In this document: in pieces, positions 2,560 to 7,310 of the stretch
Position numbering within the stretch: position 1 is the stretch's first letter
Layout: each line of letters starts with the position of its first letter
DNA from: Armatimonadota bacterium
GTDB lineage: Bacteria; Armatimonadota; UBA10988
Length of the DNA stretch: 64,000 bases
Direction of reading: 5' to 3'
Assembly (NCBI GenBank): GCA_016235455.1
Contig: JACRKZ010000008.1
Coordinates: 1 to 64,000 of the forward strand
The notes under the pieces: generated by a model
The model's database searches: none
What the model was told of the DNA's origin: nothing
What the model saw: the letters and a program-made list of their open reading frames with translations, nothing else
Program-made: the position numbers and the translations under genes

Positions 2560-2571
2560 CAGGGCGCGCTT

Positions 2572-2951
2572 GGTGGCACCAGCCTCCTGGCCGCTGACTG
2601 GCGCCGCGACGTCGGCAAGCTGCTTCGCGCACCGGCCAGGGGGCCTTGTCGTTACCCACAAGTGCCGGTCGGGTCTGCATGTGCCAGCGGTCGGCCCGAC
2701 CCCCTGGGAGCGCCGCGCTCCCGCGCGGCACCAATCGCGGCTCTGTTGGGCCACGGGAGCCATTGGTTGCGCTCGCGAGCCTTTGGGGCCGGTGCCGGAG
2801 CCGTCGGCCTCAAACTTCGCGCGAAAGCGTAGCGGAGCCGCATTGGGTGCCGCGCAGGAGCGCGGCGCTCCCAGGGACGGGCCGACCGTTGGCGCACGCA
2901 GAGCCGGCCAGCACTTGTGGATGATGATGAGGCCAGGAGGCCGGTGCCACC
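2572..2951. repeat. 380-bp imperfect palindromic (MITE-like) element
   Basis: The ends are inverted repeats of 21 bp with one mismatch (2572-2592 against 2931-2951; both begin GGTGGCACC read inward). Inside, 2654-2732 and 2846-2922 are again inverted copies of each other with scattered mismatches, including the GC palindrome GGGAGCGCCGCGCTCC. The whole could fold into one long hairpin. No transposase is encoded and no clear target duplication is visible, so a non-autonomous mobile element or a structured intergenic repeat are both possible. It fills the 460-bp gap between the GH2 gene and the Hen1-Pnkp remnant; no other gene is seen there. Confidence 0.7.
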
Positions 2952-3019
2952 ATGACCCGCGCTGTACGACCTGCCCCGCCGCCGGGTTGGGACAGACAGC
3001 GACTTTGGGGGCCTGGAGC

Positions 3020-5053
3020 ATGCTGCTGCACATCGATACCACCAGGGAGCAGGCCACCGATCTCGGCTACCTGCTGGCCAAGAACCCCGCGCGCTGCCAG
3101 ACGTTCGCGCTGTCGTTCGGCCGGGCGCACGTCTTCTCTCCGGTGGGCCTGGTGCGCGGCCGGGTTGGCAGCCGCGACGGCGGGCCGCTGTCGCAGTACG
3201 TCAACGACCGGCCGTATGTGGCCATGGCCATGACCGCCCAAGGCAGCGCGCTCTGCGTGCCCGGCAACCACGACGTCAAACTGGAGCGCGCCCTGCGCGG
3301 CCGCGATGTGCGCCAGACCCACGGTCTGGCCGCGACTATGGCGCAGCTGGCCTCTGAGCCGCCCGAGCTCAGCGGCCAGGTGGCCGACTTCATCGGCAGC
3401 CTGGTCAGCCACTACGTCCTCGACGGCGGCCGCTTGGTGGTGGCCCACGCCGGCCTGCGCGCGGAGTTGCACGGCCGCGCCTCGAGCCAGGTGCGCGAGT
3501 TCGCGCTGTATGGCGAGACCACCGGTGAGACCGACGAGTACGGTTTGCCCGTACGCTACTTCTGGGCCGGCGACTACCGCAGCGAGGCGACGGTCGTCTA
3601 TGGCCATACGCCGGTGCCCGACGCCAGTTGGACCAACCGGACAATCTGCATCGACACCGGCTGTGTCTTCGGCGGGCAACTCACCGCACTACGCTACCCC
3701 GAGCGCGAACTGGTGCAGGTGCCCGCCCGGCGCTGCTACTACGAGCCGGCGCGTCCGCTGCATCCGCCACCTGACGCGCGGCCCGACGCCGCGCGGCCGG
3801 CGGCAGACCTGCTGGACATTCAGGACGTGTTGGGCAAGCGCATCATCCCCACCCGCACCCAGGGCCATGTGACCATCCGCGAGGAGAACGCGCTGGCCGC
3901 GCTGGAGGTGTTGGGGCGGTTCGCCGCCGACCCGCGCTGGCTGGTCTACCTGCCGCCCACCATGGCGCCAGCGGACACCTGCCGCGCGGGCGACTACCTG
4001 GAGCACCCGCGTGAGGCCTTCGCCTACTTCCGCGGCGAGGAAGTGGCTCGCGTGGTCTGCCAGGAGAAGCACATGGGCTCCCGCGCGGTGGTCGTGCTGT
4101 GCCGCGACGAAGCCACGGCCCGCCGTCGGTTCTCGGTGTCCAGTGGCGAGCGGGGCATGGTGCTGACCCGCACCGGCCGGCCCTTCTTCGCCCAGACTGC
4201 GCTCACCGCCGAGGTCGTCAGCCGCCTGTGCGGCGCGGTCGAGCGCGCCGGGCTGTGGTCCGCGCTGGAGACCGACTGGCTGTGCCTCGACGCGGAGCTG
4301 ATGCCCTGGTCGGCCAGGGCACAGGAGCTGCTGCGCACGCAGTACGCGCCCGCCGGTGCCGCCGCGCGCGCCGCCTTCGCCGAGGCCATCGGCGCGCTGG
4401 AGCAGGCCCAAGCCCGCGGCGCCGAGGCCGGCAACGCCGACCTGCTGGCGCGCCTGGTCGAGCGGCAGGACTGCGCGGCCCGCTATGACCAGGCCTGGCG
4501 CCGCTACTGCTGGCGCGTGGACAGCGTGGACGACCTGAAGATCGCCCCGTTCCACCTGCTGGCCGGCGAGGGCCACGTCTACACCGACCGCGACCACCTG
4601 TGGCACATGGCCACGCTGGCCGAGCTGTGCGCCGCCGACCCGGCGCTGCTGCGCGCCGCGCCGTGCCTGCCGGTCGACCTGACCGACGCGGACAGCGAGG
4701 CCGCCGGCATCGCCTGGTGGGAGCAGCTCACCGACCGCGGCGGCGAAGGCATGGTGGTCAAGCCCCTGGGCTGGCTGACCAAGGGCCCGCACGGCCTGGT
4801 GCAGCCGGCCATCAAATGCCGCGGACGAGAGTACCTGCGGATCATCTATGGCCCGGACTACACGCGACCCGACCAGCTCGACCGGCTGCGTCAGCGCTCG
4901 CTGGGCACCAAGCGCGCCATGGCGCTGCGCGAGTATGCGCTGGGGCTGGAAGCGCTGCACCGCTTTGTCGAGGGCGAGCCGCTGTACCGCGTGCACGAGT
5001 GCGTGCTCGGCGTTCTGGCCATGGAGAGCCAGCCGGTCGACCCGCGGCTGTGA
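3020..5053 (+). CDS. pnkp: Hen1-Pnkp deletion chimera: Hen1 N-terminus fused to partial Pnkp phosphatase and intact-looking ligase domain
   Basis: Residues 1-68 match the start of bacterial Hen1, the 3'-terminal RNA ribose 2'-O-methyltransferase (TDLGYLLAKNP, SFGRAHVF, PVGLVRG, QYVNDRPYVA). Residues ~69-250 match Pnkp phosphatase, entering just before ALCVPGNHD and continuing through HYVLDGG, VVAHAG, ALYGETTGETDE and YGHTPVP. Residues ~300-677 match the Pnkp ligase: CQEKHMGSRA (Lys-containing motif I), GGEGMVVKP and KCRGREYLRIIYG. The Hen1 methyltransferase, the Pnkp kinase and the first phosphatase metal motifs (DxH, GDxxDRG) are absent. Hen1 and Pnkp normally form a two-protein RNA repair complex encoded by adjacent genes, so a deletion across both explains the fusion. 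ATG 3020 is chosen because it is the Hen1 start. The ligase may still work; the phosphatase probably does not. Confidence 0.85.
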   Translation: MLLHIDTTREQATDLGYLLAKNPARCQTFALSFGRAHVFSPVGLVRGRVGSRDGGPLSQYVNDRPYVAMAMTAQGSALCVPGNHDVKLERALRGRDVRQTHGLAATMAQLASEPPELSGQVADFIGSLVSHYVLDGGRLVVAHAGLRAELHGRASSQVREFALYGETTGETDEYGLPVRYFWAGDYRSEATVVYGHTPVPDASWTNRTICIDTGCVFGGQLTALRYPERELVQVPARRCYYEPARPLHPPPDARPDAARPAADLLDIQDVLGKRIIPTRTQGHVTIREENALAALEVLGRFAADPRWLVYLPPTMAPADTCRAGDYLEHPREAFAYFRGEEVARVVCQEKHMGSRAVVVLCRDEATARRRFSVSSGERGMVLTRTGRPFFAQTALTAEVVSRLCGAVERAGLWSALETDWLCLDAELMPWSARAQELLRTQYAPAGAAARAAFAEAIGALEQAQARGAEAGNADLLARLVERQDCAARYDQAWRRYCWRVDSVDDLKIAPFHLLAGEGHVYTDRDHLWHMATLAELCAADPALLRAAPCLPVDLTDADSEAAGIAWWEQLTDRGGEGMVVKPLGWLTKGPHGLVQPAIKCRGREYLRIIYGPDYTRPDQLDRLRQRSLGTKRAMALREYALGLEALHRFVEGEPLYRVHECVLGVLAMESQPVDPRL

Positions 5054-5106: not shown

Positions 5107-5679
5107 ATGGCAGACTACGTAGGTGAGGTGGTTCTCAGCAGCACGACGCGCCTGACGGCGCAGTGCCCCGACGACGATGCGACGCCGGCCTTGGGCTCGT
5201 TCGTGACCGTCGACTACGGGCCGGGCCGGGCCGTGGCGGTGGTGGCCGAGGTGCGCTCGGGCAGTCTGGACCCTGGGCGTCGGCCGGTAGCCTTCGGGTT
5301 GAGCGAGGAGGAGTTGTTCCGCCAGCAGCCGCAGCTACGCGAGTTGTTGAGCACCGAATTCGAGGCCATCCTCGTCGGCTGGTCCGAGGGCGACGGCCCG
5401 GCGCGCCAGCTCCTGCCGCCGCGACCGCCACGGCTGCACCGCTTCGTCAGCCCCGCTGAGCCCGACGACGTGCGCACGGTGACAGAAGGCGGCGACTGGC
5501 TGCGGACGCTACTGGCCGCCGAGGCGAGCGACGACCTGCTGGCCGCGGCGGTGCGTGCCTCGCTGGCAACCCGGCCCGACGACCACACCGCGCGCCTGCA
5601 CGCCGGCCGTGCGTTGGCCCGCCTGGTGGGCGACGACTACGAGCGCCTGCAGGTGCTGCTGCGGAGGGTGGCGCAATGA
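5107..5679 (+). CDS. HAS-barrel domain protein, HerA partner
   Basis: A 190-residue protein resembling the small HAS-barrel proteins encoded directly before HerA in cyanobacteria and other phyla. The N-terminal barrel includes GSFVTVDYG, SGSLDPGRRP and FGLSEEELFRQQPQLRELL. A helical C-terminus ends DDYERLQVLLRR. No nuclease motif is seen, so it is not NurA. Its end overlaps the herA start by 4 bp (ATGA), implying translational coupling and a shared complex. HAS barrels help HerA-type ATPases assemble or bind partners; the specific role here is inferred from context. ATG 5107 is the only start consistent with the conserved N-terminus. Confidence 0.75.
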   Translation: MADYVGEVVLSSTTRLTAQCPDDDATPALGSFVTVDYGPGRAVAVVAEVRSGSLDPGRRPVAFGLSEEELFRQQPQLRELLSTEFEAILVGWSEGDGPARQLLPPRPPRLHRFVSPAEPDDVRTVTEGGDWLRTLLAAEASDDLLAAAVRASLATRPDDHTARLHAGRALARLVGDDYERLQVLLRRVAQ

Positions 5680-7310
5680 TCGAGACACGCCAACGGCTCG
5701 GCCTGGTCACCGGCGGCAGCCTGCTCGATGGCCTGGAGATGAAGCTCGATCCAGGCGTCAGCACCGAAGCGCTGCGCGCCGGCCAGTACGTGGTGGTCGA
5801 GGGTCAAGACCACATCTTCTACACGATGATCACCGACGTGCGGCTGCAAAGCGCCAGCCCCAGCATCCCCATTCGGCCGCCGGCCGATGGCGACGATCTG
5901 CTGCGGCAGGTGCTGGCCGGCGAATGGACCTATGTCACACTGCACCTGCGCCCGCTGCTGCAGCTGCCGCTGGTCGGCGAGACCGATGTCGATTCGGCGC
6001 AGGTCAAGACCGTGCCCGCGCACTTCGCCGCCGCCCAGCGCGCCAGCGAGGACGATGTCTCGCGCGTCTTCGGCCAGCAGAGCGCCCGCGACCGCTTCCA
6101 TGTCGGCGCGCCGCTGGATATGGACACGCCCGTCTGCCTCAACCTGAGCCGGTTCGTCGAGCGCAGCAACGGCATCTTCGGCAAGACCGGCACGGGGAAG
6201 ACCTTCCTGACCCGCCTGGTACTGGCCGGTCTGTGCCACAAGCTGCCCGGCGAGGTGGTCACCCTGACCTTCGACATGCATAACGAGTATGGCGGCAGCG
6301 CGCGCCAGGAGGGCAGCGACCGGCATGTGCCCGGCCTCAAGCAGCTCTTTGGCGAGCAGGTCGCGGTGATGACGCTCGACGAGGAGTCGAGCCGCCGGCG
6401 GGGCGCGCCCATCGACGAGGTCGTGCAACTGGCCTACGACGACATCGAGCCCGGCGACATCATCGCCATGCGCGGCGAACTCGGCCTGTCCGAGGCCGGC
6501 TGCGACACGCTCTCGCTGCTCGAAGGCCATTTCGGTGATCGCTGGCTGTGGCAACTGCTGCACGGTGACCCCGAGGAGCTGGTCGAACGCATCGGCGGCC
6601 ACCTGGGCGCCGTGCTGGCCGCCCGGCGCAAGCTAGCCCGACTGGCCGGCAAGGACTTCAAGCGCTTCCTGCACCCCAAGCTCGAAGGATCGGCCCGCCG
6701 CGCGGTGGACACGCTGGTCAAACGCCTCGCCGAGCGCAAACAGCATGTCGTGCTGGAGTTCGGCCAGGTGACCAGCCTGCTGAGCTACCTGCTGGTGGCC
6801 AATGTCGTCACCCGCAAGCTCTATGCCGAGTGGGTCCGCCGCGCCGAGGAGTTCCACGCCAGCCTGCGCCCGCAGGATAAGCCCCCACACCTGGTCATCT
6901 GCGTTGAGGAGGCCCACAAGTTCCTCAACCCCGAAGCCGCGCGGCAAACCTCGTTCGGCCAGATCGCGCGCGAACTGCGCAAGTACTTCGTCTCCCTGCT
7001 CATCGTCGACCAGCGGCCCAGCGGCATCGACGACGAGATCCTCAGCCAGCTCGGCACGCGCATCACCGCCCAGCTCAACGACGACCGCGACATCGCCGCG
7101 GTACTCGCCGGCACCACCGGCTCCGCGGGTCTGCGCGTGGTGCTGGCGGGCCTCGACTCCAAGCAACAGGCCCTTATTTTCGGCCACGCCGTGCCCATGC
7201 CCGTCGTGCTCAAGACCCGGACCTACAACGACGAACTGTTCGGCGAGATCGGGCGGATCAAGGCGGATGTGGAGGGGACGATGAGCGCGGGGCCGGACCC
7301 GTGGGGATGA
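5676..7310 (+). CDS. herA: HerA-like hexameric DNA-translocating ATPase
   Basis: A FtsK/HerA superfamily ATPase of 544 residues. The N-terminal ~130 residues form a HAS barrel. Walker A is GKTGTGKT (169-176) and Walker B is VICVEEAH (~406-413), followed by RQTSFGQIARELRK and SLLIVDQRPSGID, typical of HerA. HerA proteins translocate DNA and usually work with a nuclease (NurA) in end resection, or with other effectors in defence modules; no nuclease gene is adjacent here. It overlaps the HAS-barrel gene by 4 bp. The nearest other gene is the Hen1-Pnkp remnant, so a nucleic-acid repair island is plausible but inferred. Confidence 0.85.
   Translation: MIETRQRLGLVTGGSLLDGLEMKLDPGVSTEALRAGQYVVVEGQDHIFYTMITDVRLQSASPSIPIRPPADGDDLLRQVLAGEWTYVTLHLRPLLQLPLVGETDVDSAQVKTVPAHFAAAQRASEDDVSRVFGQQSARDRFHVGAPLDMDTPVCLNLSRFVERSNGIFGKTGTGKTFLTRLVLAGLCHKLPGEVVTLTFDMHNEYGGSARQEGSDRHVPGLKQLFGEQVAVMTLDEESSRRRGAPIDEVVQLAYDDIEPGDIIAMRGELGLSEAGCDTLSLLEGHFGDRWLWQLLHGDPEELVERIGGHLGAVLAARRKLARLAGKDFKRFLHPKLEGSARRAVDTLVKRLAERKQHVVLEFGQVTSLLSYLLVANVVTRKLYAEWVRRAEEFHASLRPQDKPPHLVICVEEAHKFLNPEAARQTSFGQIARELRKYFVSLLIVDQRPSGIDDEILSQLGTRITAQLNDDRDIAAVLAGTTGSAGLRVVLAGLDSKQQALIFGHAVPMPVVLKTRTYNDELFGEIGRIKADVEGTMSAGPDPWG

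Follow-up and report, generated by a model that had tools for sequence, protein, structure and literature searches.

An open reading frame of 677 codons at positions 3020-5053 (+) joins the beginning of a hen1 gene to the second part of a pnkp gene, and is best explained, with a probability of about 0.73, as a remnant, known from one assembly, that a recent deletion has left of an ordinary bacterial operon for RNA repair, hen1-pnkp. Operons of this kind are thought to defend against RNA-cutting toxins. The fusion has the look of a known system, Hen1-Pnkp, in decay, and not of a new type of system or a new enzyme. The window (the whole stretch of DNA analysed) comprises the first 64 kb of the 115,583-bp contig C8, from a 6.5-Mb Armatimonadota genome assembly that is 93% complete.

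Domain structure of the fused reading frame

The frame runs from the start codon of hen1 (ATG at 3020) to the stop codon of pnkp without an internal stop, first through 68 Hen1 residues and then through Pnkp. More than 600 codons follow the deletions described below with neither a stop nor a frameshift, and both ends are those of normal proteins, with a Hen1 start (MLLxIxTT) and a Pnkp end (VDPRL). The features are as follows.

3020..5053, + strand: Hen1-Pnkp fusion reading frame, 677 aa
3020..3223, + strand: Hen1-derived N-terminus, residues 1-68, only the start of the ligase-activating domain, methyltransferase absent (PF12623 and TIGR04074 matches; alignment with 72 Hen1 proteins)
3134..3142, + strand: site of a 51-bp in-frame deletion in the Hen1 piece (AHVF|SPVGLVRG, 17 residues gone; alignment with Hen1 relatives)
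3212..3232, + strand: deletion junction, Hen1 ...NDRPYVA to Pnkp ...(A)MAM; judged from relatives, it would fit a microhomology of ~5 bp (TGGCC)
3218..3754, + strand: C-terminal part of the Pnkp phosphatase, with GNHD, VAHAG and YGHTP kept and GDVHG and GDLVDRG lost (query 66-248 corresponds to residues 78-260 of 4j6o)
3896..5035, + strand: Pnkp ligase (adenylyltransferase) domain, complete (PF16542 1-377/377; 4drf, 3ty5/8/9)

Profile searches bore out the division proposed in the preliminary description, in which the first ~68 residues were assigned to Hen1 and the remainder to Pnkp. Residues 1-73 matched Hen1_L (PF12623) with an E value of 1.4e-17 (4e-20 when an isolated 83-aa piece was used), positions 1-87 of the 462 in TIGR04074 were matched at 62 bits, and the solved Hen1 N-terminal domain 4dqz aligned with query residues 1-71 (E 5.8e-13). 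Residues 67-677 correspond to positions 244-851 of the Pnkp model TIGR04075, at 975 bits. Within this part, residues 293-672 cover the whole of the PNKP_ligase model (PF16542, 1-377/377), and among solved structures the ligase matched 4drf with an E value of 4e-158. The C-terminal ligase retains its motifs KHMGSR (4067-4084) and GGEGMVVK (4739-4762).

Parts of Hen1 and Pnkp that have been lost

When the system is complete, both ends of the RNA are healed by Pnkp and the 3' end is methylated by Hen1, whose N-terminal domain also activates the ligase: it keeps the insertion domain of the ligase in a conformation by which the ligase pocket is opened (PMC4411300). Comparison with relatives agreed with the earlier proposal that the methyltransferase, the kinase and the first phosphatase metal motifs are gone and that the frame and the ligase motifs are kept. 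With bacterial Pnkp (TIGR04075; Clostridium thermocellum Pnkp; structures 4drf, 3ty5/8/9 and 4j6o) the fusion shares the complete ligase and the second half of the phosphatase, at about 54-67% identity to close relatives over 611 residues. It lacks, however, the kinase domain, including the P-loop GxxGxGKS, and the first 77 phosphatase residues, so that both the kinase and the phosphatase should be dead. Of the motifs of a complete metallophosphatase (GDVHG, GDxVDRG, GNHD and the later His motifs), the first two are missing. Upstream of the junction the fusion has lost 53 sites at which 106 full-length Pnkp proteins of relatives are at least 95% conserved, among them the P-loop, GDVHG and GDLVDRG. 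The 975 bits nevertheless exceed the 750-bit cut-off of TIGR04075, although only positions 244-851 are aligned; automatic annotation would call this protein a polynucleotide kinase-phosphatase despite the absence of the kinase and of half the phosphatase.

The Hen1 part is reduced further. The fusion has residues 1-68 in common with bacterial Hen1 (TIGR04074/PF12623; 4dqz), with the start codon and QYVNDRPYVA among the shared features; missing from it are 17 internal residues, the entire methyltransferase and ~70% of the domain that activates the ligase. The threshold for a full-length Hen1 match that includes the methyltransferase domain is 340 bits, against 62 bits here. Only positions 1-90 of the 242 in the activating domain are represented, with 17 of those deleted, and the fusion keeps 68 of about 230-240 residues (~30%). 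The 17 residues, between AHVF and PVGLVRG, were removed by a second, in-frame deletion of 51 bp (17 codons) and are present in 72 of 72 aligned Hen1 relatives; one further row of the alignment, a misplaced 3-residue fragment, was ignored. Alignment with the hen1 and pnkp genes of relatives thus upheld the fusion described earlier and added the 51-bp deletion, which that description had missed.

The joining of the two pieces is plain in the assembled sequence. The hen1 gene of most relatives sits directly upstream of pnkp in the same orientation. The proposal that the fusion arose by deletion across the two genes is judged correct. An equivalent deletion in the closest Armatimonadota relative (G032) would span 1,898 bp, from about codon 85 of hen1 to codon 245 of pnkp. 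At the join, the Hen1 genes of relatives read TACGTGGCC and the Pnkp genes CTGGCGATGGCGATG or similar, and a few shared bases, for instance TGGCC, may have served as microhomology when the ancestral genes were joined. The short repeat GCCATGGCCATG, which had been pointed out at the junction and was considered as a deletion scar, was rejected as such; it is ordinary Pnkp coding sequence (codons AMAM) and is also found in intact relatives (LAMAM in G032).

As the origin of the fusion, a deletion of ~1.9 kb (scaled from a relative) would have taken out the bulk of hen1 together with the 5' part of pnkp, and the 51-bp deletion would have trimmed the hen1 stub, both keeping the frame by luck. The product, if translated, would consist of ~30% of the Hen1 activating domain and half a phosphatase followed by an intact ligase domain, and would be unable to make 3'-OH or 5'-phosphate ends or to methylate. 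The missing catalytic parts point to a loss of function: both healing activities and the methyltransferase are gone and the activator survives only in part, so the RNA-repair pathway is most likely dead.

Constraint on the remaining parts

If the phosphatase half and the Hen1 piece had long been without function, relaxed constraint would be expected in them. The ratio of phosphatase to ligase distance was 0.775 for the fusion and 0.777 ± 0.080 (sd) for the 106 relatives, and that of Hen1 to ligase distance was 0.859, compared with 0.917 ± 0.114 (sd) in relatives. Only 1 of 60 near-invariant phosphatase sites was changed (relatives' mean, 0.96), so that any additional divergence free of constraint can have affected no more than about 6-8% of residues. 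These parts are therefore constrained as in intact genes, and the deletion is either young or not real; the absence of relaxed constraint suggests that it is recent. By contrast, 7 of 104 near-invariant ligase sites were changed, where the maximum for any of the 106 relatives was 6. The changes are at residues 316, 433, 445, 547, 634, 663 and 671 (e.g. K433R, T547A and E671Q; window positions 3965-5032), and possibly reflect an older weakening of the pathway that preceded the deletion.

These measurements bear on the idea that selection has preserved a minimal RNA ligase with a Hen1-derived leader, the ends being healed by enzymes encoded elsewhere in the genome. Such a fusion would account for the survival of the frame through two deletions and for a ligase domain that is complete with its nucleotidyl-transfer motifs. 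It would also have a parallel in the Pnkp1-Rnl-Hen1 complex, in which the stand-alone ligase Rnl, likewise a chain with neither kinase nor phosphatase, acts with a separate kinase-phosphatase (PMC4411300). Rnl, however, shares only ~20% identity with the Pnkp ligase and has full Hen1 and Pnkp1 as partners (PMC4411300), whereas the ligase of the fusion is of the Pnkp type (4drf, E 4e-158, versus Rnl 4xru, E 6e-6 over 101 residues) and its full partners are absent. With a useless phosphatase half that is as conserved as in intact genes, the fusion does not look like an old ligase-only gene, which should differ in this respect, and the ligase that selection was supposed to preserve has more changes at near-invariant sites than that of any of the 106 relatives. 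The Hen1 activating domain, moreover, is cut down to its first 68 residues. Selection for the fusion is on these grounds improbable, and it is quite improbable that the reading frame is translated as a working RNA ligase in which the Hen1-derived leader replaces Hen1 as activator while other enzymes do the healing. The relic interpretation has a counterpoint of its own, in that two in-frame deletions and an open frame also fit selection on the frame, the chance of both being in frame by accident being 1/9.

Searches of this genome and the possibility of an artefact

The whole assembly was searched with the fusion protein and with Hen1 and Pnkp profiles, and no other hen1 or pnkp, and hence no full hen1-pnkp locus, was found in it. 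The Pnkp profile likewise detected no kinase part elsewhere in the genome. Beyond the fusion locus, these searches returned only weak methyltransferase matches and two insignificant ones. The methyltransferases on contigs C57, C4 and C26 were rejected as Hen1, as they match only its methyltransferase part and fall far below the cut-off. The same genome encodes RtcB, an unrelated RNA ligase.

An intact operon might be present in the genome or in most of the population, the contig then being the product of a misjoin or of a minority variant with a deletion. In favour of this, 3 kb separate the locus from the end of contig C8, and the dead halves of the fusion show zero decay, as an intact gene would. 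Yet sequence from the junction region recurs exactly at other places in the assembly over ~19 bp at most, too short for the usual de Bruijn misjoin, and no trace of the lost ~1.9-kb middle was found anywhere in the 93%-complete assembly. A misjoin would also leave unexplained the separate 51-bp deletion within the same small piece, both events falling inside 200 bp. Genes taken as samples from other parts of the window match their families and, like the adjacent genes for HerA and peroxiredoxin, were without comparable truncation, and similar deletions occur in other assemblies, one of them on a 395-kb contig. An assembly or population artefact is accordingly regarded as unlikely, though not negligibly so.

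hen1-pnkp in related genomes

The same fusion was found in none of the other genomes among 291 from the Armatimonadota, nor in the best 80 of 198 GTDB contig loci (the search patterns included the junction-spanning peptide PYVAMAMT), nor in the IMG/VR viral, plasmid and phage collections, which again tells against a selected fusion. Apparent fusions that aligned from before residue 53 were discarded; they lie in full-length Pnkp reading frames, in which the N-terminus of the phosphatase extends onto the Hen1 piece. No Pnkp ligase was found in the same-genus, same-family and same-order genomes examined.

Damaged copies of the locus, on the other hand, were found in several Armatimonadota. In G094 (L182) Hen1 residues 1 to ~65 are joined to Pnkp ~658-851; in G249 a second copy (L181, on C121), beside an intact one, joins Pnkp 172 to 584; and in G179 (L180, on the 395-kb contig) Hen1 2-132 and Pnkp 693-850 lie in different frames with ~0.7 kb between them. 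As in the fusion, the ends of these copies are kept and the middle is deleted, but their breakpoints differ from those of the fusion and their junctions do not keep the frame. In a further five genomes (G022, G015, G063, G061 and G198) hen1-pnkp is frameshifted, interrupted by stops or reduced to small fragments, although single frameshifts in some could be sequencing errors. The damaged copies indicate that the hen1-pnkp locus decays often in this phylum, where it has repeatedly been broken, as would be expected for a defence locus that is costly and useful only under some conditions.

Four large internal deletions were examined frame by frame, and only that in the fusion is in frame. If each has a one-third chance of keeping the frame, at least one in a set of four will do so with a probability of 0.80; the observed ratio, one in-frame case to three related deletions out of frame, is what chance gives. 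Of the explanations first offered for the fusion, that of a young deletion is thus supported both by the absent decay and by the similar out-of-frame deletions in G094, G249 and G179. The recurrence of comparable internal deletions in the phylum might instead suggest that part of the population turns the RNA-repair operon off by a programmed or phase-variable switch that works by excision. The breakpoints, however, differ every time (Hen1 ~68, ~65 and ~132; Pnkp ~244, ~658 and ~693; 172/584 within Pnkp), and the junction is flanked by no substantial direct repeat in the window, so that such a switch is extremely improbable. As a young relic, the fusion is of value mainly as a caution and for the base rate, since the independent out-of-frame deletions give base rates for decay.

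Other arrangements were noted in relatives. Five loci have hen1 and pnkp in the same orientation with 4-16 kb between them: L192 (G249, C96), L193 (G247, C304), L194 (G072), L195 (G008) and L196 (G064). In G249 and G247 a putative RlaP-type nucleotidyltransferase, recognised by eye from HPYPLLFATISGAHLYGFPSPDSDYDLRG, is among the genes that lie between the two. G004, a genome of the same order without a Pnkp ligase, encodes a stand-alone 191-aa protein that resembles the Pnkp kinase domain only (L197, on C218, 2663-3238).

Genomic surroundings

Downstream of the fusion, a gene for a HAS-barrel protein (5107-5679) overlaps a HerA-type helicase gene (5676-7310) by 4 bp and is followed by a peroxiredoxin gene; this order is kept in the family relative G003, a genome without hen1-pnkp. 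Directly upstream is a MITE-like palindromic repeat of ~380 bp (2571..2952), which is not part of the gene. Its 22-nt end repeats are 95% complementary, a copy with 94% identity is found on contig C39 (24608-24909), and many short fragments of the element are scattered across the genome.
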